Source: Bacteroidales bacterium (GTDB lineage: Bacteria > Bacteroidota > Bacteroidia > Bacteroidales > P3). Taken from it: DNA of 64,000 nt. The stretch lies in NCBI GenBank assembly GCA_022482545.1, contig JAKVOZ010000001.1, positions 1 through 64,000 on the forward strand. The letters are read 5' to 3'. The notes under the pieces are model-generated. The model was not told the origin of the DNA and ran no database searches. It was given only the letters and a program-made list of their open reading frames with translations. The translations under genes and the position numbers were made by a program. Of this stretch, positions 4,779 to 48,100 are shown piece by piece. Position 1 is the first letter of the stretch. Each line of letters opens with the position of its first letter.

Positions 4779-7700
4779 TTATTTAATTACAATAAAGGTC
4801 TTTTCTCGTATATTATTTTTCTTATCTTTGACAACAAGTTTTAATGTATTCTTACCTTGAAGTAGGTTATCATCTATCGTATAAGTAAGAAGAGAGTTCT
4901 TGCCATCATATTCCATAAGAACCCATTTGTCATTAAGATAAGCATTATAAGAACGTATGCCTGAAAGATTGTCTTTTATACGAACTTTTAATGATTTCTG
5001 ACTTCTAAATAGTTTTTTGTTGTTTTTAAAATTAAGATTAGTTATCGTTGGAGGTATAGTATCCACACCAACAGTAAAGATACCAAAATCTCCTGCTGTT
5101 GTTTGCACATAACCATCATATAACTTGCCACCAATACTGCGTTGTATCTTCCCATTTGGACGCAAACGAATAACAAGATATTTATTTATAAGTGAGGAAT
5201 CAATGTTGTATGGTTTTATTTTTACTGTAAAACTTTTTCTTACAGGCTCATAAATATTATGAATGTAATGATTGTTGGAATATCTGCCTTTTGTTGTTTT
5301 GTATGTTAAGCTGATATTTTCATAAAGACAGTTCTTTGGAAAAATGAAAACAGAACTGTCCTCGGCAAGATAAGTTGCAGAAGAATTATAAGAAAGATTT
5401 AAGACGACGTTAGATGAAGAAAGATTTTTGTTTATTGTTGTATCTTCAATACCTTTAACATAAAACGAATAAGTTGTTTGGTTGTTTTTTATGTCTGTTA
5501 GTTTGTAAGTAATCTTGTAAATAGAGTCTATCATAAGAGAAATTATGCCATCATCTTTATAATTGTCAAAAGGAAGATTGTAATTAGATAATTTTCGTGA
5601 ACAAAGATAACGTTTATCTGTCTTAACATACAAAGGATAATTTGTTATTGCATCAACAAATCCATAGTTGTTAAAAGAAAACTTATCTACTTTATGAGAA
5701 AATAAAAGAGTGTTATCATTAACAAAAAGTTCTGTCTTATAAACACCGTTTTTGCTTGAAGAGTTAAAAGCCTTATCAAAAGCAAGGATAGAAAAGAAAA
5801 TATTACCATAAGCACTAATTGTATCTGTTGTTGAATCATTAGGAGTGAAGATAGTTATTGGCATAAGTTTATCCAAAGAGTTTATTGCAATAGAAGATAT
5901 ATAAGGCGGTATGGTATCATTCATATCAAGAAAAGTAAGAGGATTTATTGGTTCTTCACTTCTTGTATTACGTATCTCATAATGAAGATGAGGTCCTGCT
6001 GCTGCTCCACTTTCTCCACTTATTGCTATTGTATCGCCTTGTTTTAGATGTATTGTAGGACGCTTAAAAGTATAATCAAATTCATAACAATGATGTTTGT
6101 ATTGGTAGTTTTTAACAAAGGTCTCAATGTCGCCATAATATCTTTCAAGGTGCATATAAACAGTTGTATAACCATTAGGATGAACAATGTAAAGGTTTTT
6201 TCCTCCACCAAAAGCCTGTACTTTTATTCTGCTAACATCACCGTCAGCTGGACATATAACTGCAAAACCAGTCTTTTCCATTGTCCTTATATCAAGCCCT
6301 GAATGAAAATGTGTTCCTCTTAGTTCTGCAAAATTACCTGCTGATGATATAGGTATATTTATTGGAGGAATGAAACCATTTATTTCTTTGTTTATTGTTG
6401 TGTCTTGTGCATAGCTGTTTGTACTGAAAAGAGATAAAGAGACAAGAAGAAAGAAAGAGAATGTTTTTATTATCTTTGCTTTTGTCCAGCGATTAGTTTT
6501 GTAGTAAATAAAAGATATGATAACGCCGAGAGTCCAACCAATAGGAGCACTAAGCCAAATGCCGAGAGTATTAAAAAATGCAGATAAGTAGTAAGCAATA
6601 GGAAATCTAACAATAAGAAGAGTGAAGATGCTTATTATCATAGGTATAAATGAATAGCCAACACCACGGAAGAATGCAGTGAACATCATCATCACACTGA
6701 AAATAAACCAAAATAAACCACTTACCATAAGATATTCTTTACCTATACGAATAACTTCCTTATCAGTTGTAAATAAACTCATTAAATTATTTCCAAATAA
6801 ACAGAAGATAATCATTGTTATTCCAGCAATCAAGGCACATATTTTAAAAGAAGAGAACAAGCCTTTTCTTACTCTTTGCATGTTCCTTGCTCCAAAATTA
6901 CTACCAACAAAAGAAGTAAGAGATTGAGAAGTGTTGAGAATGAAAAGTAATGCGATACTCTCTATTCTAACAGCAGACGAATAAGCAGCAGTTGCTTGAG
7001 TGCCGAAGCCAACAACAAGTGAAAGAATAAGTATTTGAGTTAAAGAAACAACACTTTGTTGAACACCTGTTGGAAGACCTATGTTGATAATATGTTTAAG
7101 AAATGTTTTGTTGAAATATATTTTAAAATCTTTATGATTGTAGTCTTTTTTTGTTTTAACATCTTTAAGAAAACCTCCTTTATAATAGATAAAAGAGAAT
7201 ATACATAAACAAGCAATGAACTGACTAATAACAGACGATAGTGCAGATGAGGCAACACCATAATGATAAACGCCAAGAAAAACATAAGAGAGTATGCCGT
7301 TAAGAATGTTGGCAGATATAAGAAAATAGAGTTGAGTAGTAGAATCGCCAAGACCTCTTAATATACTTATTGCACTATTGAAGCATACAGAGAAAAACAT
7401 TCCTATCATATAGATACGAAAATATGTTACTGCAAAAGGAAAAACATTTTTATCAAGATTGATTAAAGAAAATATTTGAGGAGCAAACCAAATGCCAAGC
7501 AAACACATAACAAGTCCAAAAGAAATGAAGAAGATATAGAAAGTACTAATTATTTTTTTTATGCTTTCATAATCTTTTGCACCGAAATAATGCGACACAA
7601 CCACACTGCCTCCACTACCAATACCAATGATTAATGATGTTAGAAGAAAAACAATAGGATAAGTAGAACCAACAGCAGCCAATTCATTAACTCCAAGAAA

Positions 7701-7820
7701 GTTACCAACAAAAGCACTATTAACAAGAGTATATAGTTGTTGAAAGAGATTACCAAGAATAAGTGGTAAAGAAAAAAGAAAAATACTTTTGCCTATCTCA
7801 CCTTGTGTAAAATCACGCAT
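4779..7820 (-). CDS. MATE-family transporter fused to an M23 metallopeptidase
   Basis: 1013 aa. Residues 1 to about 445 are a complete MATE efflux transporter: start MRDFTQGEIGKSIFLFSLPL, twelve predicted membrane helices, and family segments such as LVNSAFVGNFLG and GSGGSVVVSHYFGAK. After KTNRWTKAKIIK comes a hydrophobic stretch (about 452-470) ending NSYAQ that looks exactly like a signal peptide. Then follows an M23/LytM domain with all zinc ligands (His506 and Asp510 in HFHSGLDIR, His613 in GPHLHYEI) and a beta-rich tail to 1013. With the MATE C terminus cytoplasmic, the extra helix would put the peptidase in the periplasm. Two formerly separate genes appear joined in frame; two ATA codons stand at 450-451 where an ATG would restore a separate secreted peptidase. 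It overlaps the hydrolase stop by one base (TAATG). Confidence 0.85.
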   Translation of the reverse strand: MRDFTQGEIGKSIFLFSLPLILGNLFQQLYTLVNSAFVGNFLGVNELAAVGSTYPIVFLLTSLIIGIGSGGSVVVSHYFGAKDYESIKKIISTFYIFFISFGLVMCLLGIWFAPQIFSLINLDKNVFPFAVTYFRIYMIGMFFSVCFNSAISILRGLGDSTTQLYFLISANILNGILSYVFLGVYHYGVASSALSSVISQFIACLCIFSFIYYKGGFLKDVKTKKDYNHKDFKIYFNKTFLKHIINIGLPTGVQQSVVSLTQILILSLVVGFGTQATAAYSSAVRIESIALLFILNTSQSLTSFVGSNFGARNMQRVRKGLFSSFKICALIAGITMIIFCLFGNNLMSLFTTDKEVIRIGKEYLMVSGLFWFIFSVMMMFTAFFRGVGYSFIPMIISIFTLLIVRFPIAYYLSAFFNTLGIWLSAPIGWTLGVIISFIYYKTNRWTKAKIIKTFSFFLLVSLSLFSTNSYAQDTTINKEINGFIPPINIPISSAGNFAELRGTHFHSGLDIRTMEKTGFAVICPADGDVSRIKVQAFGGGKNLYIVHPNGYTTVYMHLERYYGDIETFVKNYQYKHHCYEFDYTFKRPTIHLKQGDTIAISGESGAAAGPHLHYEIRNTRSEEPINPLTFLDMNDTIPPYISSIAINSLDKLMPITIFTPNDSTTDTISAYGNIFFSILAFDKAFNSSSKNGVYKTELFVNDNTLLFSHKVDKFSFNNYGFVDAITNYPLYVKTDKRYLCSRKLSNYNLPFDNYKDDGIISLMIDSIYKITYKLTDIKNNQTTYSFYVKGIEDTTINKNLSSSNVVLNLSYNSSATYLAEDSSVFIFPKNCLYENISLTYKTTKGRYSNNHYIHNIYEPVRKSFTVKIKPYNIDSSLINKYLVIRLRPNGKIQRSIGGKLYDGYVQTTAGDFGIFTVGVDTIPPTITNLNFKNNKKLFRSQKSLKVRIKDNLSGIRSYNAYLNDKWVLMEYDGKNSLLTYTIDDNLLQGKNTLKLVVKDKKNNIREKTFIVIK

Positions 7821-8626
7821 TATATCTCAAAACAACTTTTTGTAAAGGATAATAAACGACTTCTAATAATGTTTTCTTTCTCAATAAAAGACATATGTCC
7901 GCAAGAACCAAGAAGAAGAGTTTCGCAATATTGAGCAAGCATTGCTTGAGCAAAGATGTTTTCTAACTCTATTCGCGGGTCTTGCTTACCAATAACAAAC
8001 AACACTGGGACATTGCTTTGTTCAAGAACATTTAAACGAGATTTTCTTTCAAGCATACCCATCTGTGCAGCGATTATACCTTCTTTGCTTGTGTTGAGTG
8101 CCATATCTTTTATATCTTCAATTTCGGAAGAGAACTTTGTGCGGTTTTCTTTTGCAAATAAGTTAGGAATAAAATCTACTATATATTTTATTCTATCGTC
8201 ATCAATAAGTTGGCAGGCACGTTTGCGGTTTTCTTTTCCTTTATCATTATCAGCCATTGCGTGAGAATGTAAAAGGACAAAACCTTTTAAATATTGTGGA
8301 TACATTTCAGCAAAAGCCAAGGTGATAAATCCTCCCATAGAATGCCCACACATCACACATTGTTTTACATTACATTTATCAAGAACTTCTTTGACCATCT
8401 CTGCTTGAAGTTCCATTGTGCTTACTTCTTGAACAACCTCACTCTCTCCATGTCCTATCAAGTCGATAGTAATAACACGAATACTATTCATATAACTAAG
8501 TACATAATTTTGCCAAACTCTTAAATCATTCATAAAACCATGTAAAAGGACAAGTGTTTGTTCGCCTTTGCCCTCATCTTGATAGTTGATTATCTTATCT
8601 TTGAATGTGATTGTGTGATGTATCAT
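7820..8626 (-). CDS. alpha/beta hydrolase
   Basis: 268 aa, cytoplasmic (no signal peptide). The alpha/beta-hydrolase layout is complete: the oxyanion-hole segment LLHGF (27-31), the nucleophile elbow GHSMGG with Ser96, acid Asp216 in GKQDPRIE, and His244 in CGHMSFIE. It resembles small esterases and the MhpC/BioH/menH-like group, but the substrate cannot be told. It is the first gene of an operon with the MATE-M23 fusion, whose ATG overlaps its TAA, with a promoter box 19 bases upstream. Confidence 0.9.
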   Translation of the reverse strand: MIHHTITFKDKIINYQDEGKGEQTLVLLHGFMNDLRVWQNYVLSYMNSIRVITIDLIGHGESEVVQEVSTMELQAEMVKEVLDKCNVKQCVMCGHSMGGFITLAFAEMYPQYLKGFVLLHSHAMADNDKGKENRKRACQLIDDDRIKYIVDFIPNLFAKENRTKFSSEIEDIKDMALNTSKEGIIAAQMGMLERKSRLNVLEQSNVPVLFVIGKQDPRIELENIFAQAMLAQYCETLLLGSCGHMSFIEKENIIRSRLLSFTKSCFEI

Positions 8627-13002: not shown

Positions 13003-14142
13003 ATGAAAAACAGTTACATTCTTAAAAAGATTGCTTTGACAATAATGCTAATTGTGATAGCAAATATTGGAAAAGGACAAATAATTCCAAATAGTTCAGA
13101 TACAATAATAACACCTACATATGACACAATGATTAGATTCTATCATCCAGAATTTGCAAATTGCAATACATTTAGTAATTTGCCAAGTGATAGCAATTTT
13201 GTTTTACCAGCAGTAGTCAATTCTTGGCATCATGGTATATATTTTAATTATTATAATACTACTGTACATCCACCGGTATATGATTCTGCAGCAGGTGCTT
13301 GGAGAGAATCATTTCATATAGAAATGGGTTTATTGCTTTCAAAGAATGAGTATTTTCCAGAGGGCTTTGCTCAACCATATCATTTTGATTCACCGGTAAC
13401 AATATGTGGAATATCGGCACATGTTGGAGGAGTCATACCAGAAGATGCTCCTGTTTATTATTTTAGGATATTGGATTCAAAGTTTGCAACCATAGCAAAG
13501 ACGCAAGTATTACCTGCATATGATAGCACAAGAATATTCACATGGCAACATGTAGTTAGAGAAAATTATTGGTTGGATACTGCTGTTCAAGAGGCTAATT
13601 TTTATATAGCAGCAGATGAATCAACAGAAATAGATACAGTAGGGGGATTGCATTCTACAACTTTTACAGTGCATGTTCCAAATTTGTGGTATTATTCAAC
13701 AAATAGTGTATTTGATACTATATGGAGAGATACTACGTATGGATGTCAAGCGAGTGAAAGTCCATGGTTATTAAAGAATGGAGAATGGAAGAAGTTTGCA
13801 GATGATAGTGTTTATCAGTTTTCACAGAAATGTTTCTTAGATTTCATACCTATATTAAAAATAAATAATGGAGCAATCAATGGAGGAAGTGGAATAAAAG
13901 ATATAGATTTAGAGAAAACGTGTTCAGTTTATCCCAATCCCACAGAAGATAGGTTAAAGGTAGAGAGTGATTTCAAAGTAAGGAGTTATGGTATTTATGA
14001 TATGCAAGGCAAGGAAGTGAAAAGAGAGAATATAAATATGTTTGAGTTTGTTCTTAATGTTAAACAACTGCCAACAGGTAGGTATGTTCTTCAACTCGAA
14101 ACGAAGCAAGGAAGAATATTTAAAAACATCATAAAGAAATAA
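13003..14142 (+). CDS. T9SS type A cargo protein, paralogue 1
   Basis: 379 aa. Signal peptide (MKNSYILKKIALTIMLIVIA..., cleaved near GKGQ), an aromatic-rich body of about 270 residues without a family I recognise, then a type A sorting tail: SVYPNPTEDRLKVES, YGIYDMQGKEV, LPTGRYVLQLET and FKNIIKK. The product should cross the outer membrane by T9SS and be released or anchored at the surface. It is followed 58 bases later by a paralogue; the two share three identical blocks separated by diverged ones. Confidence 0.85.
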   Translation: MKNSYILKKIALTIMLIVIANIGKGQIIPNSSDTIITPTYDTMIRFYHPEFANCNTFSNLPSDSNFVLPAVVNSWHHGIYFNYYNTTVHPPVYDSAAGAWRESFHIEMGLLLSKNEYFPEGFAQPYHFDSPVTICGISAHVGGVIPEDAPVYYFRILDSKFATIAKTQVLPAYDSTRIFTWQHVVRENYWLDTAVQEANFYIAADESTEIDTVGGLHSTTFTVHVPNLWYYSTNSVFDTIWRDTTYGCQASESPWLLKNGEWKKFADDSVYQFSQKCFLDFIPILKINNGAINGGSGIKDIDLEKTCSVYPNPTEDRLKVESDFKVRSYGIYDMQGKEVKRENINMFEFVLNVKQLPTGRYVLQLETKQGRIFKNIIKK

Positions 14143-14200: not shown

Positions 14201-15328
14201 ATGAAAAACAGTTACATTCTTAAAAAGATTGCTTTGACAATAATGCTAATTGTGATAGCAAATATTGGAAAAGGACAAATAATTCCAAATAGTTCAGATA
14301 CAATAATAACACCTACATATGACACAATGATTAGATTTTATCATCCAGAATTTGCAAATTGCAATAGTTTTTTTACAAATGTTGGTAATTTTGCATTGTC
14401 GCCATATATTATGAATTATTATTATGGGATATATTTTAATTATTACAATGATAAGGTACATCCACCAGTATATGATTCTGTAGCAGGAGCATGGAGAGCA
14501 GCATTCCAACTAATGCATTCAATGTTTGCAAAGAATGAGTATTTTCCAGAGGGCTTTGCTCAACCATATCATTTTGATTCACCGGTAACAATATGTGGAA
14601 TATCGGCACATGTTGGAGGAGTCATACCAGAAGATGCTCCTGTTTATTATTTTAGGATATTGGATTCAAAGTTTGCAACCATAGCAAAGACGCAAGTATT
14701 ACCTGCATATAATGGTGCTGGAAGAGGATGGAGTAGTGTGGTTAGAGCAAATTATTGGTTGGATACCGCTGTTCAAGCAGCTAATTTTTATATAGCAGCA
14801 GACGAAGCAACAGAAATAGATACAGTAATGGGAGTTCATTATGTTAATTATACATTAGATAGGCCAAGTCTTTGGTATTTTGCAACAAATAGTATATTCG
14901 ATACTATATGGAGAGATACTATATTTGGATGTCAAGCGAGTGAAAGTCCATGGTTATTAAAGAATGGAGAATGGAAGAAGTTTGCAGATGATAGTGTTTA
15001 TCAGTTTTCACAGAAATGTTTCTTAGATTTCATACCTATATTAAAAATAAATAATGGAGCAATCAATGGAGGAAGTGGAATAAAAGATATAGATTTAGAG
15101 AAAACGTGTTCAGTTTATCCCAATCCCACAGAAGATAGGTTAAAGGTAGAGAGTGATTTCAAAGTAAGGAGTTATGGTATTTATGATATGCAAGGCAAGG
15201 AAGTGAAAAGAGAGAATATAAATATGTTTGAGTTTGTTCTTAATGTTAAACAACTGCCAACAGGTAGGTATGTTCTTCAACTCGAAACGAAGCAAGGAAG
15301 AATATTTAAAAACATCATAAAGAAATAA
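14201..15328 (+). CDS. T9SS type A cargo protein, paralogue 2
   Basis: 375 aa, the tandem copy of the preceding gene. The first ~165 bases (one difference seen), a middle block (KNEYFPEGFAQPYHFDS to TQVLPAY) and the last 402 bases including the sorting tail look identical to paralogue 1. Segments around residues 56-110, 183-200 and 225-245 differ strongly. The upstream 40 bases are also similar, so the duplication included the leader. Function unknown; secretion via T9SS is predicted from the YPNP...KNIIKK tail. Confidence 0.85.
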   Translation: MKNSYILKKIALTIMLIVIANIGKGQIIPNSSDTIITPTYDTMIRFYHPEFANCNSFFTNVGNFALSPYIMNYYYGIYFNYYNDKVHPPVYDSVAGAWRAAFQLMHSMFAKNEYFPEGFAQPYHFDSPVTICGISAHVGGVIPEDAPVYYFRILDSKFATIAKTQVLPAYNGAGRGWSSVVRANYWLDTAVQAANFYIAADEATEIDTVMGVHYVNYTLDRPSLWYFATNSIFDTIWRDTIFGCQASESPWLLKNGEWKKFADDSVYQFSQKCFLDFIPILKINNGAINGGSGIKDIDLEKTCSVYPNPTEDRLKVESDFKVRSYGIYDMQGKEVKRENINMFEFVLNVKQLPTGRYVLQLETKQGRIFKNIIKK

Positions 15329-30434: not shown

Positions 30435-30469
30435 CAAATAGAAATAAGTAGGTGTAAAATACGCTATCT

Positions 30470-33190
30470 ATGAAAAGAATTTATTACATATTAACATTAA
30501 TTATCTTCATCCTTGGTTTTCATCAAGCACAAGCACAAACATATAAGTTAAATGGCCGTAATGATGGGAAGATTATAAAAACATGTAGTGGCACATTTAC
30601 TGATGATCGTGGAGCTGATACTAATTATTCAAAAAACCAACATAGGATAATTACTTTTAAGTCAAATTCACCTAATTCAAAAATATCAATATATTTTAGT
30701 GAGTTTAATTTGTCTTGGGTGCTCTTTTGGGGAAATCCGAATTATGATTATATGAAAATATATCAAGGTCCAGATACATTATCATCTGTTGTACATAATA
30801 CAGACAGAAATACAGATTATTTTACTCAATATGATTTACAAGGCAAAACAATAACTCCAGATGCATCCAACACTTCAGGATGTATAACATTTAAATTCGT
30901 TGCTAAATATTGGGGAGATTCAGGGCCAGGTTGGAATGCAACGATAAGTTGTGAGCCAATAATTAGTTGTCAAACAATAAAAGCAAATATAACTAATTTT
31001 ATTAAGCATACTCCAAATGGAGATGTTACTTTGCCAGTAAAACAATTTTCTGAAACAATATCAGGGAATACTTATAATTATAATACAATAGATATATGTG
31101 AGGGTGATTCAATAGATATTATTGCTTCACCAAAATTTCCAGAAAATAACCAAGGATATGCACAATCTATTGATAGTTGTACTTATCATTGGTATTTTGG
31201 AGTTGGAGATACAATAACTCATTCAACAAACACTGTCGGATTTAGAGCAGTTAGAGCAAATGGATATAATGTTAATTTGTTAGTAGAAGATCAAAATCAT
31301 TGTACTGGATTAAATGATTCTACAAGAATTCGTATTGCTGCCGCACCAAAGTTTATTGATAAAAAACTAACAATATGCGAAGGAGATACTGCATCATTAG
31401 CAATTAAACCTTTCAATCTTTTAGATAGAGATACAATAGAACATAGTTATTTTGGACAACAAACATTCATTCCAGATGGAGGTAATTGTGGAGGTACAAA
31501 TGGATGTTATGAATCTCCAGTAACATTTACTCATTTTCCTGCTGGCTCAACAGTAAAAAGTGGTGCAGATATTCAATCAGTTTGTTTAAATATAGAGCAT
31601 TCTGCAATACAAGACTTAAAATTAGCTCTTATTTGTCCAAATGGACAACAAACTGTTTTGAAATATCATTCTCAAAATAATAATACAATATATGAGCAGG
31701 GAGAAAGTAATAATGAATTCCGAATATATTTAGGACAACCTAATTTAAATGATGCAACAACAGATGTATGTGATTCTTCTCAAAATCCTATGGGCGATTG
31801 TTGGCAATATTGTTGGTCTAATCAGTATCTTACAAATAGTAGAGGTGTTTTTAATCAAAATTGTACAGATAGGTATTTATTGCCTGGTAATAATTTCAAA
31901 ACAGCAGACTCTACTCACGTTTCTTTACAGAGTGGATATTTTCAAACTCCAATACAAGATTTAGATTATAGTACAAATGCAACAATTACTACTCAAACAA
32001 CATGGTGGGGACAACATTACTATACATATACAGGACATACTTTAAATGAAACAAGTGTAGTAGATTTAAATGGGTTTGATAAATTAATTGGTTGTCCATT
32101 AAACGGAGAATGGAAAATTCAAGTATGTGATGTTTATGCAACAGATAATGGTTGGGTTTGTAGTTGGGATATGAATGTTGCCAATGCTACATTAGTAGAT
32201 TGGAATTATAAAGTGCCGATAGTTTCAACAGCATGGAACTCACCGTTTGATAGCATACGAACAGATACAACATGTTTGATAATTCCGCCAGCAGATACCT
32301 CCGGAACATTTACTTTTAATACACATATATTAGATGAGTTTGGTTGTGTGTGGGATAGTTTGCAAACATTAACTATTGTAAAACTTCCAGATAAAAACTT
32401 ACAAGATACAACTTATGCTTGTTCAGGTAATCCAGTACAACTTGATGCTGGTAATGCAGGAACAGGCTATTCTTATTTATGGAAACCAACTAACAAAACA
32501 ACACAAACAATAGATACACGACAATTATTAGCCGGAACTTCAAAAGATTATATTGTAACAACAACGCATTCTCAAGCAGGCATACAATGTAAATCATCTG
32601 ATACTACAAAGGTTATAGCAATATATCCAACAACGAATGAATATAATGGAACGGCATGTCAAGGAAAAAGATATATTGAGAATGGATTTGATACCATATT
32701 TAATACAACAGCAGGTTCTCCATTTACAATAATAGATACGATCAAGTCAATAAAAACTCATTGTGATAGTATCATCAATATATTACATTTAACGGTCAAT
32801 CCGAAGATAAGTCAAGAAATAACGGCGACGATATGTGAGGGTAAGACATATAATGAGAATGGGTTTAATGAGACAGGAGTAGTAGGAAGTACGACAACAT
32901 ATACGCATACCGATCCATCAAAAGTAACAGGGTGTGATAGTACGACAACGTTAAGATTAACAGTCAATCCGAAGATAAGTCAAGAAATAACGGCGACGAT
33001 ATGTGAGGGTAAGACATATAATGAGAATGGGTTTAATGAGACAGGAGTAGTAGGAAGTACGACAACATATACGCATACCGATCCATCAAAAGTAACAGGG
33101 TGTGATAGTACGACAACGTTAAGATTAACGGTCAATCCGAAGATAAGTCAAGAAATAACAGCGACGATATGTGAGGGACAAGACATATAA
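30470..33190 (+). CDS. giant T9SS repeat adhesin, N-terminal part (to first frameshift)
   Basis: 906 codons as read. Signal peptide 1-22 (ending QAQA). Residues 39-161 form a CUB-like domain: CSGTFTDDRG at its start, IYFSEFNL and NYDYMKIYQGP in the middle, Cys161 at its end. About 175-290 is PKD/Ig-like (CTYHWYFGVGDT). About 345-580 matches a proprotein-convertase P-domain (IQDLKLALICPNG, GEWKIQVCDVYATDNGW). A further beta-sandwich stretch leads to the first 56-aa repeat at residue 776. The frame ends at a TAA (33188-33190) in the third repeat, after an extra base in gagggacaagaca. Without that base the frame continues. The product should be surface-exposed or bound to ligands through the CUB and P domains. 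Confidence 0.85.
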   Translation: MKRIYYILTLIIFILGFHQAQAQTYKLNGRNDGKIIKTCSGTFTDDRGADTNYSKNQHRIITFKSNSPNSKISIYFSEFNLSWVLFWGNPNYDYMKIYQGPDTLSSVVHNTDRNTDYFTQYDLQGKTITPDASNTSGCITFKFVAKYWGDSGPGWNATISCEPIISCQTIKANITNFIKHTPNGDVTLPVKQFSETISGNTYNYNTIDICEGDSIDIIASPKFPENNQGYAQSIDSCTYHWYFGVGDTITHSTNTVGFRAVRANGYNVNLLVEDQNHCTGLNDSTRIRIAAAPKFIDKKLTICEGDTASLAIKPFNLLDRDTIEHSYFGQQTFIPDGGNCGGTNGCYESPVTFTHFPAGSTVKSGADIQSVCLNIEHSAIQDLKLALICPNGQQTVLKYHSQNNNTIYEQGESNNEFRIYLGQPNLNDATTDVCDSSQNPMGDCWQYCWSNQYLTNSRGVFNQNCTDRYLLPGNNFKTADSTHVSLQSGYFQTPIQDLDYSTNATITTQTTWWGQHYYTYTGHTLNETSVVDLNGFDKLIGCPLNGEWKIQVCDVYATDNGWVCSWDMNVANATLVDWNYKVPIVSTAWNSPFDSIRTDTTCLIIPPADTSGTFTFNTHILDEFGCVWDSLQTLTIVKLPDKNLQDTTYACSGNPVQLDAGNAGTGYSYLWKPTNKTTQTIDTRQLLAGTSKDYIVTTTHSQAGIQCKSSDTTKVIAIYPTTNEYNGTACQGKRYIENGFDTIFNTTAGSPFTIIDTIKSIKTHCDSIINILHLTVNPKISQEITATICEGKTYNENGFNETGVVGSTTTYTHTDPSKVTGCDSTTTLRLTVNPKISQEITATICEGKTYNENGFNETGVVGSTTTYTHTDPSKVTGCDSTTTLRLTVNPKISQEITATICEGQDI

Positions 33191-36100
33191 TGAGAATGGG
33201 TTTAATGAGACAGGAGTAGTAGGAAGTACGACAACATATACGCATACCGATCCATCAAAAGTAACAGGGTGTGATAGTACGACAACGTTAAGATTAACAG
33301 GTCAATCCGAAGATAAGTCAAGAAATAACGGCGACGATATGTGAGGGTAAGACATATAATGAGAATGGGTTTAATGAGACAGGAGTAGTAGGAAGTACGA
33401 CAACATATACGCATACCGATCCATCAAAAGTAACAGGGTGTGATAGTACGACAACGTTAAGATTAACGGTCAATCCGAAGATAAGTCAAGAGATAACAGC
33501 TACGATATGTGAAGGACAAACGTATAATGAGAATGGGTTTAATGAGACAGGAGTAGTAGGAAGTACGACAACATATACGCATACCGATCCATCAAAAGTA
33601 ACAGGGTGTGATAGTACGACAACGTTAAGATTAACGGTCAATCCGAAGATAAGTCAAGAAATAACGGCGACGATATGTGAGGGTAAGACATATAATGAGA
33701 ATGGGTTTAATGAGACAGGAGTAGTAGGAAGTACGACAACATATACGCATACCGATCCATCAAAAGTAACAGGGTGTGATAGTACGACAACGTTAAGATT
33801 AACGGTCAATCCGAAGATAAGTCAAGAGATAACAGCTACGATATGTGAGGGTAAGACATATAATGAGAATGGGTTTAATGAGACAGGAGTAGTAGGAAGT
33901 ACGACAACATATACGCATACCGATCCATCAAAAGTAACAGGGTGTGATAGTACGACAACGTTAAGATTAACGGTCAATCCGAAGATAAGTCAAGAAATAA
34001 CGGCGACGATATGTGAAGGACAAACGTATAAAGAGAATGGGTTTAATGAGACAGGAGTAGTAGGAAGTACGACAACATATACGCATACCGATCCATCAAA
34101 AGTAACAGGGTGTGATAGTACGACAACGTTAAGATTAACGGTCAATCCGAAGATAAGTCAAGAAATAACGGCGACGATATGTGAGGGTAAGACATATAAT
34201 GAGAATGGGTTTAATGAGACAGGAGTAGTAGGAAGTACGACAACATATACGCATACCGATCCATCAAAAGTAACAGGGTGTGATAGTACGACAACGTTAA
34301 GATTAACGGTCAATCCGAAGATAAGTCAAGAAATAACGGCGACGATATGTGAGGGTAAGACATATAATGAGAATGGGTTTAATGAGACAGGAGTAGTAGG
34401 AAGTACGACAACATATACGCATACCGATCCATCAAAAGTAACAGGGTGTGATAGTACGACAACGTTAAGATTAACGGTCAATCCGAAGATAAGTCAAGAA
34501 ATAACGGCGACGATATGTGAGGGTAAGACATATAATGAGAATGGGTTTAATGAGACAGGAGTAGTAGGAAGTACGACAACATATACGCATACCGATCCAT
34601 CAAAAGTAACAGGGTGTGATAGTACGACAACGTTAAGATTAACAGTCAATCCGAAGATAAGTCAAGAAATAACGGCGACGATATGTGAGGGTAAGACATA
34701 TAATGAGAATGGGTTTAATGAGACAGGAGTAGTAGGAAGTACGACAACATATACGCATACCGATCCATCAAAAGTAACAGGGTGTGATAGTACGACAACG
34801 TTAAGATTAACGGTCAATCCGAAGATAAGTCAAGAGATAACAGCTACGATATGTGAAGGACAAACGTATAATGAGAATGGGTTTAATGAGACAGGAGTAG
34901 TAGGAAGTACGACAACATATACGCATACCGATCCATCAAAAGTAACAGGGTGTGATAGTACGACAACGTTAAGATTAACGGTCAATCCGAAGATAAGTCA
35001 AGAAATAACGGCGACGATATGTGAGGGTAAGACATATAATGAGAATGGGTTTAATGAGACAGGAGTAGTAGGAAGTACGACAACATATACGCATACCGAT
35101 CCATCAAAAGTAACAGGGTGTGATAGTACGACAACGTTAAGATTAACGGTCAATCCGAAGATAAGTCAAGAGATAACAGCTACGATATGTGAGGGTAAGA
35201 CATATAATGAGAATGGGTTTAATGAGACAGGAGTAGTAGGAAGTACGACAACATATACGCATACCGATCCATCAAAAGTAACAGGGTGTGATAGTACGAC
35301 AACGTTAAGATTAACGGTCAATCCGAAGATAAGTCAAGAAATAACGGCGACGATATGTGAAGGACAAACGTATAAAGAGAATGGGTTTAATGAGACAGGA
35401 GTAGTAGGAAGTACGACAACATATACGCATACCGATCCATCAAAAGTAACAGGGTGTGATAGTACGACAACGTTAAGATTAACGGTCAATCCGAAGATAA
35501 GTCAAGAAATAACGGCGACGATATGTGAGGGTAAGACATATAATGAGAATGGGTTTAATGAGAATGGAGTAGTAGGAAGTACGACAACATATACGCATAC
35601 CGATCCATCAAAAGTAACAGGGTGTGATAGTACGACAACGTTAAGATTAACAGTCAATCCGAAGATAAGTCAAGAAATAACGGCGACGATATGTGAAGGA
35701 CAAACGTATAAAGAGAATGGGTTTAATGAGACAGGAGTAGTAGGAAGTACGACAACATATACGCATACCGATCCATCAAAAGTAACAGGGTGTGATAGTA
35801 CGACAACGTTAAGATTAACGGTCAATCCGAAGATAAGTCAAGAAATAACGGCGACGATATGTGAGGGTAAGACATATAATGAGAATGGGTTTAATGAGAC
35901 AGGAGTAGTAGGAAGTACGACAACATATACGCATACCGATCCATCGAAAGTAACAGGGTGTGATAGTACGACAACGTTAAGATTAACGGTCAATCCGAAG
36001 ATAAGTCAAGAAATAACGGCGACGATATGTGAGGGTAAGACATATAATGAGAATGGGTTTAATGAGACAGGAGTAGTAGGAAGTACGACAACATATACGC

Positions 36101-39100
36101 ATACCGATCCATCAAAAGTAACAGGGTGTGATAGTACGACAACGTTAAGATTAACAGTCAATCCGAAGATAAGTCAAGAGATAACAGCTACGATATGTGA
36201 AGGACAAACGTATAAAGAGAATGGGTTTAATGAGAATGGAGTAGTAGGAAGTACGACAACATATACGCATACCGATCCATCAAAAGTAACAGGGTGTGAT
36301 AGTACGACGACGTTAAGATTAACGGTCAATCCGAAGATAAGTCAAGAAATAACGGCGACGATATGTGAGGGTAAGACATATAATGAGAATGGGTTTAATG
36401 AGACAGGAGTAGTAGGAAGTACGACAACATATACGCATACCGATCCATCAAAAGTAACAGGGTGTGATAGTACGACAACGTTAAGATTAACGGTCAATCC
36501 GAAGATAAGTCAAGAAATAACGGCGACGATATGTGAGGGTAAGACATATAATGAGAATGGGTTTAATGAGACAGGAGTAGTAGGAAGTACGACAACATAT
36601 ACGCATACCGATCCATCAAAAGTAACAGGGTGTGATAGTACGACAACGTTAAGATTAACGGTCAATCCGAAGATAAGTCAAGAAATAACGGCGACGATAT
36701 GTGAGGGTAAGACATATAATGAGAATGGGTTTAATGAGACAGGAGTAGTAGGAAGTACGACAACATATACGCATACCGATCCATCAAAAGTAACAGGGTG
36801 TGATAGTACGACAACGTTAAGATTAACGGTCAATCCGAAGATAAGTCAAGAGATAACAGCTACGATATGTGAAGGACAAACGTATAAAGAGAATGGGTTT
36901 AATGAGAATGGAGTAGTAGGAAGTACGACAACATATACGCATACCGATCCATCAAAAGTAACAGGGTGTGATAGTACGACAACGTTAAGATTAACGGTCA
37001 ATCCGAAGATAAGTCAAGAAATAACGGCGACGATATGTGAGGGTAAGACATATAATGAGAATGGGTTTAATGAGACAGGAGTAGTAGGAAGTACGACAAC
37101 ATATACGCATACCGATCCATCAAAAGTAACAGGGTGTGATAGTACGACAACGTTAAGATTAACAGTCAATCCGAAGATAAGTCAAGAGATAACGGCGACG
37201 ATATGTGAGGGTAAGACATATAATGAGAATGGGTTTAATGAGACAGGAGTAGTAGGAAGTACGACAACATATACGCATACCGATCCATCAAAAGTAACAG
37301 GGTGTGATAGTACGACAACGTTAAGATTAACGGTCAATCCGAAGATAAGTCAAGAAATAACGGCGACGATATGTGAGGGTAAGACATATAATGAGAATGG
37401 GTTTAATGAGACAGGAGTAGTAGGAAGTACGACAACATATACGCATACCGATCCATCAAAAGTAACAGGGTGTGATAGTACGACAACGTTAAGATTAACG
37501 GTCAATCCGAAGATAAGTCAAGAGATAACAGCTACGATATGTGAGGGTAAGACATATAATGAGAATGGGTTTAATGAGACAGGAGTAGTAGGAAGTACGA
37601 CAACATATACGCATACCGATCCATCAAAAGTAACAGGGTGTGATAGTACGACAACGTTAAGATTAACAGTCAATCCGAAGATAAGTCAAGAAATAACGGC
37701 GACGATATGTGAGGGTAAGACATATAATGAGAATGGGTTTAATGAGACAGGAGTAGTAGGAAGTACGACAACATATACGCATACCGATCCATCAAAAGTA
37801 ACAGGGTGTGATAGTACGACAACGTTAAGATTAACAGTCAATCCGAAGATAAGTCAAGAAATAACGGCGACGATATGTGAGGGTAAGACATATAATGAGA
37901 ATGGGTTTAATGAGACAGGAGTAGTAGGAAGTACGACAACATATACGCATACCGATCCATCAAAAGTAACAGGGTGTGATAGTACGACAACGTTAAGATT
38001 AACAGTCAATCCGAAGATAAGTCAAGAGATAACAGCTACGATATGTGAAGGACAAACGTATAATGAGAATGGGTTTAATGAGAATGGAGTAGTAGGAAGT
38101 ACGACAACATATACGCATACCGATCCATCAAAAGTAACAGGGTGTGATAGTACGACAACGTTAAGATTAACAGTCAATCCGAAGATAAGTCAAGAGATAA
38201 CAGCTACGATATGTGAAGGACAAACGTATAAAGAGAATGGGTTTAATGAGAATGGAGTAGTAGGAAGTACGACAACATATACGCATACCGATCCATCAAA
38301 AGTAACAGGGTGTGATAGTACGACAACGTTAAGATTAACAGTCAATCCGAAGATAAGTCAAGAGATAACAGCTACGATATGTGAAGGACAAACGTATAAT
38401 GAGAATGGGTTTAATGAGAATGGAGTAGTAGGAAGTACGACAACATATACGCATACCGATCCATCAAAAGTAACAGGGTGTGATAGTACGACGACGTTAA
38501 GATTAACGGTCAATCCGAAGATAAGTCAAGAAATAACGGCGACGATATGTGAAGGACAAACGTATAAAGAGAATGGGTTTAATGAGACAGGAGTAGTAGG
38601 AAGTACGACAACATATACGCATACCGATCCATCAAAAGTAACAGGGTGTGATAGTACGACGACGTTAAGATTAACGGTCAATCCGAAGATAAGTCAAGAA
38701 ATAACGGCGACGATATGTGAGGGTAAGACATATAATGAGAATGGGTTTAATGAGACAGGAGTAGTAGGAAGTACGACAACATATACGCATACCGATCCAT
38801 CAAAAGTAACAGGGTGTGATAGTACGACAACGTTAAGATTAACGGTCAATCCGAAGATAAGTCAAGAAATAACGGCGACGATATGTGAGGGTAAGACATA
38901 TAATGAGAATGGGTTTAATGAGACAGGAGTAGTAGGAAGTACGACAACATATACGCATACCGATCCATCAAAAGTAACAGGGTGTGATAGTACGACAACG
39001 TTAAGATTAACAGTCAATCCGAAGATAAGTCAAGAAATAACGGCGACGATATGTGAGGGTAAGACATATAATGAGAATGGGTTTAATGAGACAGGAGTAG

Positions 39101-42100
39101 TAGGAAGTACGACAACATATACGCATACCGATCCATCAAAAGTAACAGGGTGTGATAGTACGACAACGTTAAGATTAACGGTCAATCCGAAGATAAGTCA
39201 AGAAATAACGGCGACGATATGTGAGGGTAAGACATATAATGAGAATGGGTTTAATGAGACAGGAGTAGTAGGAAGTACGACAACATATACGCATACCGAT
39301 CCATCAAAAGTAACAGGGTGTGATAGTACGACAACGTTAAGATTAACAGTCAATCCGAAGATAAGTCAAGAGATAACAGCTACGATATGTGAAGGACAAA
39401 CGTATAAAGAGAATGGGTTTAATGAGAATGGAGTAGTAGGAAGTACGACAACATATACGCATACCGATCCATCAAAAGTAACAGGGTGTGATAGTACGAC
39501 AACGTTAAGATTAACAGTCAATCCGAAGATAAGTCAAGAGATAACAGCTACGATATGTGAAGGACAAACGTATAAAGAGAATGGGTTTAATGAGAATGGA
39601 GTAGTAGGAAGTACGACAACATATACGCATACCGATCCATCAAAAGTAACAGGGTGTGATAGTACGACAACGTTAAGATTAACGGTCAATCCGAAGATAA
39701 GTCAAGAGATAACAGCTACGATATGTGAAGGACAAACGTATAAAGAGAATGGGTTTAATGAGAATGGAGTAGTAGGAAGTACGACAACATATACGCATAC
39801 CGATCCATCAAAAGTAACAGGGTGTGATAGTACGACAACGTTAAGATTAACGGTCAATCCGAAGATAAGTCAAGAGATAACAGCTACGATATGTGAAGGA
39901 CAAACGTATAAAGAGAATGGGTTTAATGAGAATGGAGTAGTAGGAAGTACGACAACATATACGCATACCGATCCATCAAAAGTAACAGGGTGTGATAGTA
40001 CGACAACGTTAAGATTAACGGTCAATCCGAAGATAAGTCAAGAAATAACGGCGACGATATGTGAGGGTAAGACATATAATGAGAATGGGTTTAATGAGAC
40101 AGGAGTAGTAGGAAGTACGACAACATATACGCATACCGATCCATCAAAAGTAACAGGGTGTGATAGTACGACAACGTTAAGATTAACAGTCAATCCGAAG
40201 ATAAGTCAAGAGATAACGGCGACGATATGTGAGGGTAAGACATATAATGAGAATGGGTTTAATGAGACAGGAGTAGTAGGAAGTACGACAACATATACGC
40301 ATACCGATCCATCAAAAGTAACAGGGTGTGATAGTACGACAACGTTAAGATTAACAGTCAATCCGAAGATAAGTCAAGAAATAACGGCGACGATATGTGA
40401 GGGTAAGACATATAATGAGAATGGGTTTAATGAGACAGGAGTAGTAGGAAGTACGACAACATATACGCATACCGATCCATCAAAAGTAACAGGGTGTGAT
40501 AGTACGACAACGTTAAGATTAACGGTCAATCCGAAGATAAGTCAAGAAATAACGGCGACGATATGTGAGGGTAAGACATATAATGAGAATGGGTTTAATG
40601 AGACAGGAGTAGTAGGAAGTACGACAACATATACGCATACCGATCCATCAAAAGTAACAGGGTGTGATAGTACGACAACGTTAAGATTAACGGTCAATCC
40701 GAAGATAAGTCAAGAGATAACGGCGACGATATGTGAGGGTAAGACATATAATGAGAATGGGTTTAATGAGACAGGAGTAGTAGGAAGTACGACAACATAT
40801 ACGCATACCGATCCATCAAAAGTAACAGGGTGTGATAGTACGACAACGTTAAGATTAACAGTCAATCCGAAGATAAGTCAAGAAATAACGGCGACGATAT
40901 GTGAGGGTAAGACATATAATGAGAATGGGTTTAATGAGACAGGAGTAGTAGGAAGTACGACAACATATACGCATACCGATCCATCAAAAGTAACAGGGTG
41001 TGATAGTACGACAACGTTAAGATTAACGGTCAATCCGAAGATAAGTCAAGAAATAACGGCGACGATATGTGAGGGTAAGACATATAATGAGAATGGGTTT
41101 AATGAGAATGGAGTAGTAGGAAGTACGACAACATATACGCATACCGATCCATCAAAAGTAACAGGGTGTGATAGTACGACAACGTTAAGATTAACAGTCA
41201 ATCCGAAGATAAGTCAAGAGATAACAGCTACGATATGTGAAGGACAAACGTATAAAGAGAATGGGTTTAATGAGAATGGAGTAGTAGGAAGTACGACAAC
41301 ATATACGCATACCGATCCATCAAAAGTAACAGGGTGTGATAGTACGACAACGTTAAGATTAACAGTCAATCCGAAGATAAGTCAAGAAATAACGGCGACG
41401 ATATGTGAAGGACAAACGTATAATGAGAATGGGTTTAATGAGACAGGAGTAGTAGGAAGTACGACAACATATACGCATACCGATCCATCAAAAGTAACAG
41501 GGTGTGATAGTACGACAACGTTAAGATTAACGGTCAATCCGAAGATAAGTCAAGAAATAACGGCGACGATATGTGAGGGTAAGACATATAATGAGAATGG
41601 GTTTAATGAGACAGGAGTAGTAGGAAGTACGACAACATATACGCATACCGATCCATCAAAAGTAACAGGGTGTGATAGTACGACAACGTTAAGATTAACG
41701 GTCAATCCGAAGATAAGTCAAGAAATAACGGCGACGATATGTGAGGGTAAGACATATAATGAGAATGGGTTTAATGAGACAGGAGTAGTAGGAAGTACGA
41801 CAACATATACGCATACCGATCCATCAAAAGTAACAGGGTGTGATAGTACGACAACGTTAAGATTAACAGTCAATCCGAAGATAAGTCAAGAAATAACGGC
41901 GACGATATGTGAGGGTAAGACATATAATGAGAATGGGTTTAATGAGACAGGAGTAGTAGGAAGTACGACAACATATACGCATACCGATCCATCAAAAGTA
42001 ACAGGGTGTGATAGTACGACAACGTTAAGATTAACGGTCAATCCGAAGATAAGTCAAGAAATAACGGCGACGATATGTGAGGGTAAGACATATAATGAGA

Positions 42101-45100
42101 ATGGGTTTAATGAGACAGGAGTAGTAGGAAGTACGACAACATATACGCATACCGATCCATCAAAAGTAACAGGGTGTGATAGTACGACAACGTTAAGATT
42201 AACGGTCAATCCGAAGATAAGTCAAGAAATAACGGCGACGATATGTGAGGGTAAGACATATAATGAGAATGGGTTTAATGAGACAGGAGTAGTAGGAAGT
42301 ACGACAACATATACGCATACCGATCCATCAAAAGTAACAGGGTGTGATAGTACGACAACGTTAAGATTAACGGTCAATCCGAAGATAAGTCAAGAAATAA
42401 CGGCGACGATATGTGAGGGTAAGACATATAATGAGAATGGGTTTAATGAGACAGGAGTAGTAGGAAGTACGACAACATATACGCATACCGATCCATCAAA
42501 AGTAACAGGGTGTGATAGTACGACAACGTTAAGATTAACGGTCAATCCGAAGATAAGTCAAGAAATAACGGCGACGATATGTGAGGGTAAGACATATAAT
42601 GAGAATGGGTTTAATGAGACAGGAGTAGTAGGAAGTACGACAACATATACGCATACCGATCCATCAAAAGTAACAGGGTGTGATAGTACGACAACGTTAA
42701 GATTAACGGTCAATCCGAAGATAAGTCAAGAAATAACGGCGACGATATGTGAGGGTAAGACATATAATGAGAATGGGTTTAATGAGACAGGAGTAGTAGG
42801 AAGTACGACAACATATACGCATACCGATCCATCAAAAGTAACAGGGTGTGATAGTACGACAACGTTAAGATTAACGGTCAATCCGAAGATAAGTCAAGAA
42901 ATAACGGCGACGATATGTGAGGGTAAGACATATAATGAGAATGGGTTTAATGAGAATGGAGTAGTAGGAAGTACGACAACATATACGCATACCGATCCAT
43001 CAAAAGTAACAGGGTGTGATAGTACGACAACGTTAAGATTAACAGTCAATCCGAAGATAAGTCAAGAAATAACGGCGACGATATGTGAGGGTAAGACATA
43101 TAATGAGAATGGGTTTAATGAGACAGGAGTAGTAGGAAGTACGACAACATATACGCATACCGATCCATCAAAAGTAACAGGGTGTGATAGTACGACAACG
43201 TTAAGATTAACGGTCAATCCGAAGATAAGTCAAGAAATAACGGCGACGATATGTGAGGGTAAGACATATAATGAGAATGGGTTTAATGAGACAGGAGTAG
43301 TAGGAAGTACGACAACATATACGCATACCGATCCATCGAAAGTAACAGGGTGTGATAGTACGACAACGTTAAGATTAACGGTCAATCCGAAGATAAGTCA
43401 AGAAATAACGGCGACGATATGTGAGGGTAAGACATATAATGAGAATGGGTTTAATGAGACAGGAGTAGTAGGAAGTACGACAACATATACGCATACCGAT
43501 CCATCAAAAGTAACAGGGTGTGATAGTACGACAACGTTAAGATTAACGGTCAATCCGAAGATAAGTCAAGAAATAACGGCGACGATATGTGAGGGTAAGA
43601 CATATAATGAGAATGGGTTTAATGAGACAGGAGTAGTAGGAAGTACGACAACATATACGCATACCGATCCATCGAAAGTAACAGGGTGTGATAGTACGAC
43701 AACGTTAAGATTAACGGTCAATCCGAAGATAAGTCAAGAGATAACAGCTACGATATGTGAGGGTAAGACATATAATGAGAATGGGTTTAATGAGACAGGA
43801 GTAGTAGGAAGTACGACAACATATACGCATACCGATCCATCAAAAGTAACAGGGTGTGATAGTACGACAACGTTAAGATTAACGGTCAATCCGAAGATAA
43901 GTCAAGAAATAACGGCGACGATATGTGAGGGTAAGACATATAATGAGAATGGGTTTAATGAGACAGGAGTAGTAGGAAGTACGACAACATATACGCATAC
44001 CGATCCATCAAAAGTAACAGGGTGTGATAGTACGACAACGTTAAGATTAACGGTCAATCCGAAGATAAGTCAAGAAATAACGGCGACGATATGTGAGGGT
44101 AAGACATATAATGAGAATGGGTTTAATGAGACAGGAGTAGTAGGAAGTACGACAACATATACGCATACCGATCCATCAAAAGTAACAGGGTGTGATAGTA
44201 CGACAACGTTAAGATTAACGGTCAATCCGAAGATAAGTCAAGAGATAACAGCTACGATATGTGAAGGACAAACGTATAATGAGAATGGGTTTAATGAGAC
44301 AGGAGTAGTAGGAAGTACGACAACATATACGCATACCGATCCATCAAAAGTAACAGGGTGTGATAGTACGACAACGTTAAGATTAACGGTCAATCCGAAG
44401 ATAAGTCAAGAAATAACGGCGACGATATGTGAAGGACAAACGTATAAAGAGAATGGGTTTAATGAGACAGGAGTAGTAGGAAGTACGACAACATATACGC
44501 ATACCGATCCATCAAAAGTAACAGGGTGTGATAGTACGACAACGTTAAGATTAACGGTCAATCCGAAGATAAGTCAAGAAATAACGGCGACGATATGTGA
44601 GGGTAAGACATATAATGAGAATGGGTTTAATGAGACAGGAGTAGTAGGAAGTACGACAACATATACGCATACCGATCCATCGAAAGTAACAGGGTGTGAT
44701 AGTACGACAACGTTAAGATTAACGGTCAATCCGAAGATAAGTCAAGAAATAACGGCGACGATATGTGAGGGTAAGACATATAATGAGAATGGGTTTAATG
44801 AGACAGGAGTAGTAGGAAGTACGACAACATATACGCATACCGATCCATCAAAAGTAACAGGGTGTGATAGTACGACAACGTTAAGATTAACAGTCAATCC
44901 GAAGATAAGTCAAGAGATAACAGCTACGATATGTGAAGGACAAACGTATAAAGAGAATGGGTTTAATGAGAATGGAGTAGTAGGAAGTACGACAACATAT
45001 ACGCATACCGATCCATCAAAAGTAACAGGGTGTGATAGTACGACGACGTTAAGATTAACGGTCAATCCGAAGATAAGTCAAGAAATAACGGCGACGATAT

Positions 45101-48100
45101 GTGAAGGACAAACGTATAAAGAGAATGGGTTTAATGAGACAGGAGTAGTAGGAAGTACGACAACATATACGCATACCGATCCATCAAAAGTAACAGGGTG
45201 TGATAGTACGACAACGTTAAGATTAACGGTCAATCCGAAGATAAGTCAAGAAATAACGGCGACGATATGTGAGGGACAAACGTATAAAGAGAATGGGTTT
45301 AATGAGAATGGAGTAGTAGGAAGTACGACAACATATACGCATACCGATCCATCAAAAGTAACAGGGTGTGATAGTACGACAACGTTAAGATTAACGGTCA
45401 ATCCGAAGATAAGTCAAGAAATAACGGCGACGATATGTGAGGGTAAGACATATAATGAGAATGGGTTTAATGAGACAGGAGTAGTAGGAAGTACGACAAC
45501 ATATACGCATACCGATCCATCAAAAGTAACAGGGTGTGATAGTACGACAACGTTAAGATTAACGGTCAATCCGAAGATAAGTCAAGAAATAACGGCGACG
45601 ATATGTGAGGGTAAGACATATAATGAGAATGGGTTTAATGAGACAGGAGTAGTAGGAAGTACGACAACATATACGCATACCGATCCATCAAAAGTAACAG
45701 GGTGTGATAGTACGACAACGTTAAGATTAACGGTCAATCCGAAGATAAGTCAAGAAATAACGGCGACGATATGTGAGGGTAAGACATATAATGAGAATGG
45801 GTTTAATGAGAATGGAGTAGTAGGAAGTACGACAACATATACGCATACCGATCCATCAAAAGTAACAGGGTGTGATAGTACGACAACGTTAAGATTAACA
45901 GTCAATCCGAAGATAAGTCAAGAAATAACGGCGACGATATGTGAGGGTAAGACATATAATGAGAATGGGTTTAATGAGACAGGAGTAGTAGGAAGTACGA
46001 CAACATATACGCATACCGATCCATCAAAAGTAACAGGGTGTGATAGTACGACAACGTTAAGATTAACGGTCAATCCGAAGATAAGTCAAGAAATAACGGC
46101 GACGATATGTGAGGGTAAGACATATAATGAGAATGGGTTTAATGAGACAGGAGTAGTAGGAAGTACGACAACATATACGCATACCGATCCATCGAAAGTA
46201 ACAGGGTGTGATAGTACGACAACGTTAAGATTAACGGTCAATCCGAAGATAAGTCAAGAAATAACGGCGACGATATGTGAGGGTAAGACATATAATGAGA
46301 ATGGGTTTAATGAGACAGGAGTAGTAGGAAGTACGACAACATATACGCATACCGATCCATCAAAAGTAACAGGGTGTGATAGTACGACAACGTTAAGATT
46401 AACGGTCAATCCGAAGATAAGTCAAGAAATAACGGCGACGATATGTGAGGGTAAGACATATAATGAGAATGGGTTTAATGAGACAGGAGTAGTAGGAAGT
46501 ACGACAACATATACGCATACCGATCCATCGAAAGTAACAGGGTGTGATAGTACGACAACGTTAAGATTAACGGTCAATCCGAAGATAAGTCAAGAAATAA
46601 CGGCGACGATATGTGAGGGTAAGACATATAATGAGAATGGGTTTAATGAGACAGGAGTAGTAGGAAGTACGACAACATATACGCATACCGATCCATCAAA
46701 AGTAACAGGGTGTGATAGTACGACAACGTTAAGATTAACGGTCAATCCGAAGATAAGTCAAGAAATAACGGCGACGATATGTGAGGGTAAGACATATAAT
46801 GAGAATGGGTTTAATGAGACAGGAGTAGTAGGAAGTACGACAACATATACGCATACCGATCCATCAAAAGTAACAGGGTGTGATAGTACGACAACGTTAA
46901 GATTAACGGTCAATCCGAAGATAAGTCAAGAAATAACGGCGACGATATGTGAGGGTAAGACATATAATGAGAATGGGTTTAATGAGAATGGAGTAGTAGG
47001 AAGTACGACAACATATACGCATACCGATCCATCAAAAGTAACAGGGTGTGATAGTACGACAACGTTAAGATTAACGGTCAATCCGAAGATAAGTCAAGAA
47101 ATAACGGCGACGATATGTGAGGGTAAGACATATAATGAGAATGGGTTTAATGAGACAGGAGTAGTAGGAAGTACGACAACATATACGCATACCGATCCAT
47201 CAAAAGTAACAGGGTGTGATAGTACGACAACGTTAAGATTAACAGTCAATCCGAAGATAAGTCAAGAGATAACAGCTACGATATGTGAAGGACAAACGTA
47301 TAAAGAGAATGGGTTTAATGAGACAGGAGTAGTAGGAAGTACGACAACATATACGCATACCGATCCATCAAAAGTAACAGGGTGTGATAGTACGACAACG
47401 TTAAGATTAACGGTCAATCCGAAGATAAGTCAAGAAATAACGGCGACGATATGTGAGGGTAAGACATATAATGAGAATGGGTTTAATGAGACAGGAGTAG
47501 TAGGAAGTACGACAACATATACGCATACCGATCCATCGAAAGTAACAGGGTGTGATAGTACGACAACGTTAAGATTAACGGTCAATCCGAAGATAAGTCA
47601 AGAAATAACGGCGACGATATGTGAGGGTAAGACATATAATGAGAATGGGTTTAATGAGACAGGAGTAGTAGGAAGTACGACAACATATACGCATACCGAT
47701 CCATCAAAAGTAACAGGGTGTGATAGTACGACAACGTTAAGATTAACAGTCAATCCGAAGATAAGTCAAGAGATAACAGCTACGATATGTGAAGGACAAA
47801 CGTATAAAGAGAATGGGTTTAATGAGAATGGAGTAGTAGGAAGTACGACAACATATACGCATACCGATCCATCAAAAGTAACAGGGTGTGATAGTACGAC
47901 GACGTTAAGATTAACGGTCAATCCGAAGATAAGTCAAGAAATAACGGCGACGATATGTGAGGGTAAGACATATAATGAGAATGGGTTTAATGAGACAGGA
48001 GTAGTAGGAAGTACGACAACATATACGCATACCGATCCATCAAAAGTAACAGGGTGTGATAGTACGACAACGTTAAGATTAACGGTCAATCCGAAGATAA

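Follow-up and report, generated by a model that had tools for sequence, protein, structure and literature searches.

One reading frame joins a MATE transporter and an M23 peptidase in two Bacteroidales genera and may encode a polyprotein with an internal signal peptide

On the minus strand of the window, i.e., the whole 64,000-nucleotide stretch of Bacteroidales DNA that was analysed, a single frame was read from position 7820 to 4779 without an internal stop, encoding 1013 amino acids in which a MATE transporter is followed by an M23 peptidase. The features of the locus are as follows.

7820 to 8626, minus strand: alpha/beta hydrolase gene (PF00561) directly upstream of the fusion, its stop overlapping the fusion start (TAATG)
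4779 to 7820, minus strand: fused gene, MATE-signal peptide-M23, 1013 aa; an open frame with an architecture common to 16 of 190 family genomes
6465 to 7820, minus strand: MATE transporter, residues 1-452, 12 helices with a basic tail (441-452); from PF01554, TIGR00797, the PfMATE fold match and alignment of stand-alone orthologs
6465 to 6500, minus strand: MATE cytoplasmic tail KTNRWTKAKIIK, residues 441-452, apparently also the basic n-region of a putative internal signal peptide; assigned by alignment with the tails of stand-alone MATE proteins
6408 to 6464, minus strand: 13th helix, residues 453-471, comprising the hydrophobic core and c-region of the putative internal signal peptide; from hydropathy and AlphaFold
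6405 to 6407, minus strand: codon of Q472, with a predicted signal peptidase I cut between A471 and Q472, then pyroglutamate; Q in all 16 fusions
5901 to 6374, minus strand: M23 peptidase domain, residues 483-640, with H506, D510, H557, H611 and H613; from PF01551, the LytM-type fold match and residue invariance
4782 to 5900, minus strand: residues 641-1013, a beta-rich region at the C-terminus of the M23 protein; from the AlphaFold model and conservation with stand-alone Bacteroidota orthologs

Curated family models were matched by both halves of the protein. MatE (PF01554) scored 188.7 bits and Peptidase_M23 (PF01551) 56.7 bits, against Pfam cut-offs of 24.9 and 28.7, respectively, and TIGR00797 (matE) scored 214.6 bits over residues 19-417 (NCBIfam cut-off 147.4). 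The models thus extend across the whole MATE domain, marking it as a probable MATE transporter, and the alignment of stand-alone MATE orthologs reached residue 450-454 of the fused protein. The in-frame fusion of a complete MATE with an M23 protein, as described in the earlier note, was confirmed by the open frame, by these models and by its presence in 16 assemblies. The five M23 motif residues listed above were identical in all 16 aligned fused proteins and include the HxxxD (H506/D510) and HxH (H611/H613) motifs; by comparison with LytM-type enzymes, the zinc ligands, which that note had described as intact, are expected to be among them. Three further M23 genes were found in the genome of the window organism, so the fused M23 need not be essential.

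An AlphaFold model of the whole protein showed the MATE helices, with a mean pLDDT of 73.2 and a pTM of 0.47, values at which the mutual placement of the two halves is uninformative. PfMATE was the best solved match of the MATE half (TMt 0.79, range 0.73-0.81), and model and match together point to a 12-helix MATE fold. The same fold is known from PfMATE (3vvn/3wbn) and DinF-BH (4lz6), at 23-25% identity; unlike these transporters, the fusion continues into a predicted signal peptide and a peptidase. The M23 part alone (residues 473-1013), modelled with 29 sequences, gave a mean pLDDT of 89.3, and its N-terminal domain matched the LytM-type peptidases DipM, ShyA and LytM in Foldseek, which together with PF01551 suggests a LytM-type fold. 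A 13th helix was modelled at residues 449-467 with low confidence, and a hydropathy peak lies at 448-467. Twelve helices followed by a 13th would put the peptidase outside, a workable topology, as had been supposed.

To follow the distribution of the fusion, residues 330-640 were used as query against 190 genomes of the family. The fusion was found in 16 of them, namely in 10 of the 14 genomes of the window's genus, g1 (G000, G001, G002, G004, G005, G006, G007, G008, G012 and G013), and in all six of genus g4 (G016, G027, G185, G186, G187 and G188), while the 170 genomes of the family's ten remaining genera showed no fusion. Fourteen of the 16 were uninterrupted from end to end; the other two are incomplete for technical reasons, with an N gap in the M23 part of G005 and a frame running off the contig in G185. 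M23 was a separate gene in three of the 14 g1 genomes (G003, G010 and G011), and no M23 match was seen in G009, also of g1 and 69% complete. A search of 393 genomes of the order gave four matches, from the same genera only, at a threshold (E 1e-60) strict enough for a very diverged fusion to escape. A search of 395 genomes of the class (E 1e-30) gave matches in 308, which means that the stand-alone M23 protein is widespread; among the best ~155 rows of these 308 matching genomes, fused forms were confined to G000 and G016. A further candidate in G674 (open frame 1358) was rejected as an M23 protein without a MATE part. This 722-aa ortholog (L189) carries a C-terminal extension of ~155 aa. As a separate observation, the stand-alone M23 of G010 (L160) reads HLL in place of the HLH seen in all fused copies and in G003 and G011, and hence misses one histidine of the catalytic motif.

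Identity to the window's fusion was 46-61% in the 13 full-length relatives aligned. The search for the same fusion in relatives, proposed in the earlier note, was thus successful, and its view of the fusion as recent was abandoned, since the fusion is common to 16 species of two genera at identities down to ~46%. The dN/dS values of computable pairs were low in both halves (MATE 0.07-0.09, M23 0.00-0.10), indicating from codon comparison that both are under purifying selection; for the seam, they ranged from 0.15 to 0.43.

The seam was examined in an alignment of the 16 fusions over residues 427-482, where Q472 was the sole invariant column of 56. The mean share of the commonest residue was 43% in columns 441-471 and 27% in columns 473-482, compared with 72% in MATE and 75% in M23 (483-640). 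The residue preceding Q472 was always small (A in 13, S in two and C in one). In all 16 fusions, the 13th hydrophobic core ended with a small residue followed by Q, compared with 24 of 164 hydrophobic cores of the MATE parts, and the same ending was found by script in 69 of 78 distinct loci of stand-alone Bacteroidota M23 orthologs, or in 73 of 78 when four of the nine script misses (L099, L113, L160 and L170) were added by eye. The segment therefore has the n/h/c layout of a signal peptide and the small-residue-Q end of a putative Q-rule substrate of signal peptidase I. By eye, the Q-rule was followed by eight of eight non-lipoprotein signal-peptide genes of the window (at 719, 13003, 14201, 20446, 25255, 26201, 30470 and 60514, of which 13003 and 14201 are near-duplicates). 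The genome of the window organism encodes a signal peptidase I (PF10502) and a 332-aa M28 protein that matched glutamine cyclotransferases in the PDB (E 1e-85). Most signal peptidase I substrates of Bacteroidetes expose a glutamine, which a membrane-bound glutaminyl cyclase converts to pyroglutamate, according to two papers (PMC5837995, PMC10653852).

The residues upstream of the core were assigned to MATE. Tails of stand-alone MATE orthologs read, e.g., TGRWKTKGVVK plus some residues, with the motif GKWK-x-K-x-VVK, and in the fusion the M23-derived hydrophobic core follows directly on such a tail, so that the basic cytoplasmic tail serves as the n-region of the signal peptide. Two adjacent ATA codons (450-451, 6468-6473), previously thought to mark a lost start codon of M23, were found to encode the two isoleucines of KTNRWTKAKIIK; they align with the VV or similar (VVK/IIK) of the MATE orthologs, and that reading was rejected. 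Likewise, the end of the stand-alone MATE of G010 (SNSKIVKS-stop), considered as the scar of a lost signal peptide, turned out to be a normal outgroup MATE tail motif.

As the best explanation, we propose a polyprotein, i.e., one chain whose cleavage between A471 and Q472 would release a periplasmic M23 peptidase from the MATE transporter, and assign this reading, which is drawn from sequence comparison, a probability of about 0.68. Ribosomes would make MATE and M23 as a single chain, of which the 12 MATE helices would insert so that the tail stays cytoplasmic; with this tail as n-region, the hydrophobic core would start export of M23, signal peptidase I would cut after the small residue, and glutaminyl cyclase would convert Q472 at the M23 N-terminus to pyroglutamate. 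The end products would be the transporter, which would keep the 13th helix besides its own 12, and free periplasmic M23 in equal amounts; both the cleavage and the targets of the two halves are inferred. Cutting after synthesis is argued for by the sole invariant residue of the seam being the glutamine of the signal peptidase I site. Counting against cleavage, seven of the 16 fusions carry L (five), V (one) or P (one) at position -3, which is less ideal than A or S. The conserved Q could also reflect descent from a stand-alone signal peptide combined with weak drift, although the other seam columns have all changed. Processing as a lipoprotein by signal peptidase II finds no support in the window protein, which has no Cys in residues 441-482. 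In G001, G002, G004, G006 and G013 (L144, L145, L146, L148 and L152), a lipobox-like LISC, LFAC or LFSC just before the Q site makes that route possible. In G012, which belongs to this sub-clade, a Y stands where the others have C. A regulatory variant of the polyprotein, in which the conformational or substrate state of MATE would gate the signal peptidase cut, so that efflux or envelope stress would set the dose of peptidoglycan hydrolase, was drawn from analogy with LtaS and is a long shot.

In the main rival reading, the 13th helix would be an uncleaved anchor that keeps the peptidase at the inner membrane next to the pump, with their activities coupled. M23 enzymes anchored in the inner membrane are common, the topology would allow such a permanent tether, and the fusion is kept in 16 species with purifying selection on both halves. 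An anchor needs no small-residue-Q motif, however, and yet nothing else in the seam is invariant; in addition, the secreted stand-alone orthologs carry this small-Q site as well, and the split state of G003, G010 and G011 implies that joining of the halves is dispensable. We therefore regard a lasting tether as unlikely, and with it one protein in which transport is coupled to wall cleavage, which the earlier note had offered as an option and which the invariant signal peptidase I glutamine speaks against.

Highly improbable is an internal translation start, from which M23 would also be made using its own start codon inside the frame. An in-frame ATG stands shortly before the hydrophobic core in eight of the 16 fusions (QMKS or similar, RMKN, WMKT and NMVK), and in these species a separate M23 start might be used. 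Codons 394-514 of the window gene, however, contain no ATG, GTG, TTG or CTG, from which it follows that no usual codon there could give M23 with its export signal a separate start, and in G007 and G186, ATG, GTG and TTG are absent between the end of MATE helix 12 and the end of the core; in these three genes, an internal start would require ATA, ATT or similar. A decayed or misassembled locus with a non-functional product, in which mutation or sequencing error would have removed a stop and a start, is favoured only by the predominance of separate genes in the rest of the class and can be practically dismissed given 16 assemblies from two genera, low dN/dS values and invariant catalytic residues.

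The history of the locus was traced from gene neighbours and trees. The alpha/beta hydrolase gene lies directly upstream of 15 of the 16 fusions (that of G187 is at a contig end) and upstream of the stand-alone MATE in G010 and G011. It is also found directly upstream of stand-alone M23 in G022 and G032 (g10) and in G024 and G034 (g12); it was not upstream of stand-alone M23 in G003, G010 and G011 or in the five other outgroup loci examined (G014, G015, G017, G018 and G035). The likely course is that a MATE gene would have entered between the hydrolase gene and a secreted M23 gene, that the joining would have cost M23 its own start, and that one sub-clade would later have split again. In the trees of all three proteins, the separate-gene species nest inside the fused g1 species (support 99/98 for MATE, 87/90 for M23 and, for the hydrolase, 97/93 on a branch with G005, G007 and G008). 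Because of this nesting, the fusion was probably split again in G003, G010 and G011, and the separation of MATE and M23 in this sub-clade is probably secondary. Relatives with two genes, which had been named as part of the grounds for rejecting the fusion, do exist in three of 14 congeners, but the trees give their separate M23 as a derived state. The MATE halves form one clade (100/100), whereas the M23 tree places g12, which is unfused, next to g1, a position only weakly supported (90/86); a single fusion event common to g1 and g4 thus fits the MATE tree and not clearly the M23 tree.

Stand-alone secreted M23 proteins of Bacteroidota resemble the fusion over residues ~483-1003, with 25-40% identity in full-length orthologs and the same small-Q end, but have their own start codon and no MATE part. 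A polytopic protein followed in one chain by an internal signal peptide and a periplasmic protein is also seen in the cytochrome b/c1 precursor FbcH of Bradyrhizobium, which is cut by signal peptidase; it differs from the MATE-M23 fusion in that both products belong to one complex and the families are unrelated. A precedent for the cutting of a polytopic protein by signal peptidase is LtaS of Staphylococcus aureus, whose extracellular enzyme domain is released in this way and for which state-dependent cutting has been proposed (PMC10865820); LtaS has no homology to the fusion, and its parts make up one enzyme, as opposed to two unrelated full proteins here. No description of a MATE-M23 fusion was found in search listings of the open-access literature. 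The MATE and M23 families and signal peptidase processing of membrane proteins are already known; two full proteins joined via a tail turned signal peptide and kept in two genera are new. If the polyprotein reading is true, two unrelated envelope proteins, each of full length, would be joined in a conserved bacterial polyprotein that the general signal peptidase cuts, and the cytoplasmic tail of a transporter would have become half of a signal peptide. The Q-rule makes for an unusually sharp prediction, a pyroglutamate-blocked peptide, and annotation of such one-gene fusions as bifunctional enzymes may mislead.

Elsewhere in the window, the plus strand carries tandem near-duplicate secreted proteins at 13003-14142 and 14201-15328 with a type IX secretion tail (PF18962). 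Such tails in the window, together with named relatives of the M23 part, assign the organism to Bacteroidota. Apparently one giant repetitive gene of ~9,100 aa spans 30458-58020 on the plus strand, with a 168-bp repeat in 107 copies (32789-50816) and a 153-bp repeat in 30 copies (50805-55370); it was read in two frames (30458-33190 and 33298-58020), with small indels near 33180 and 33298 that are possibly read errors.
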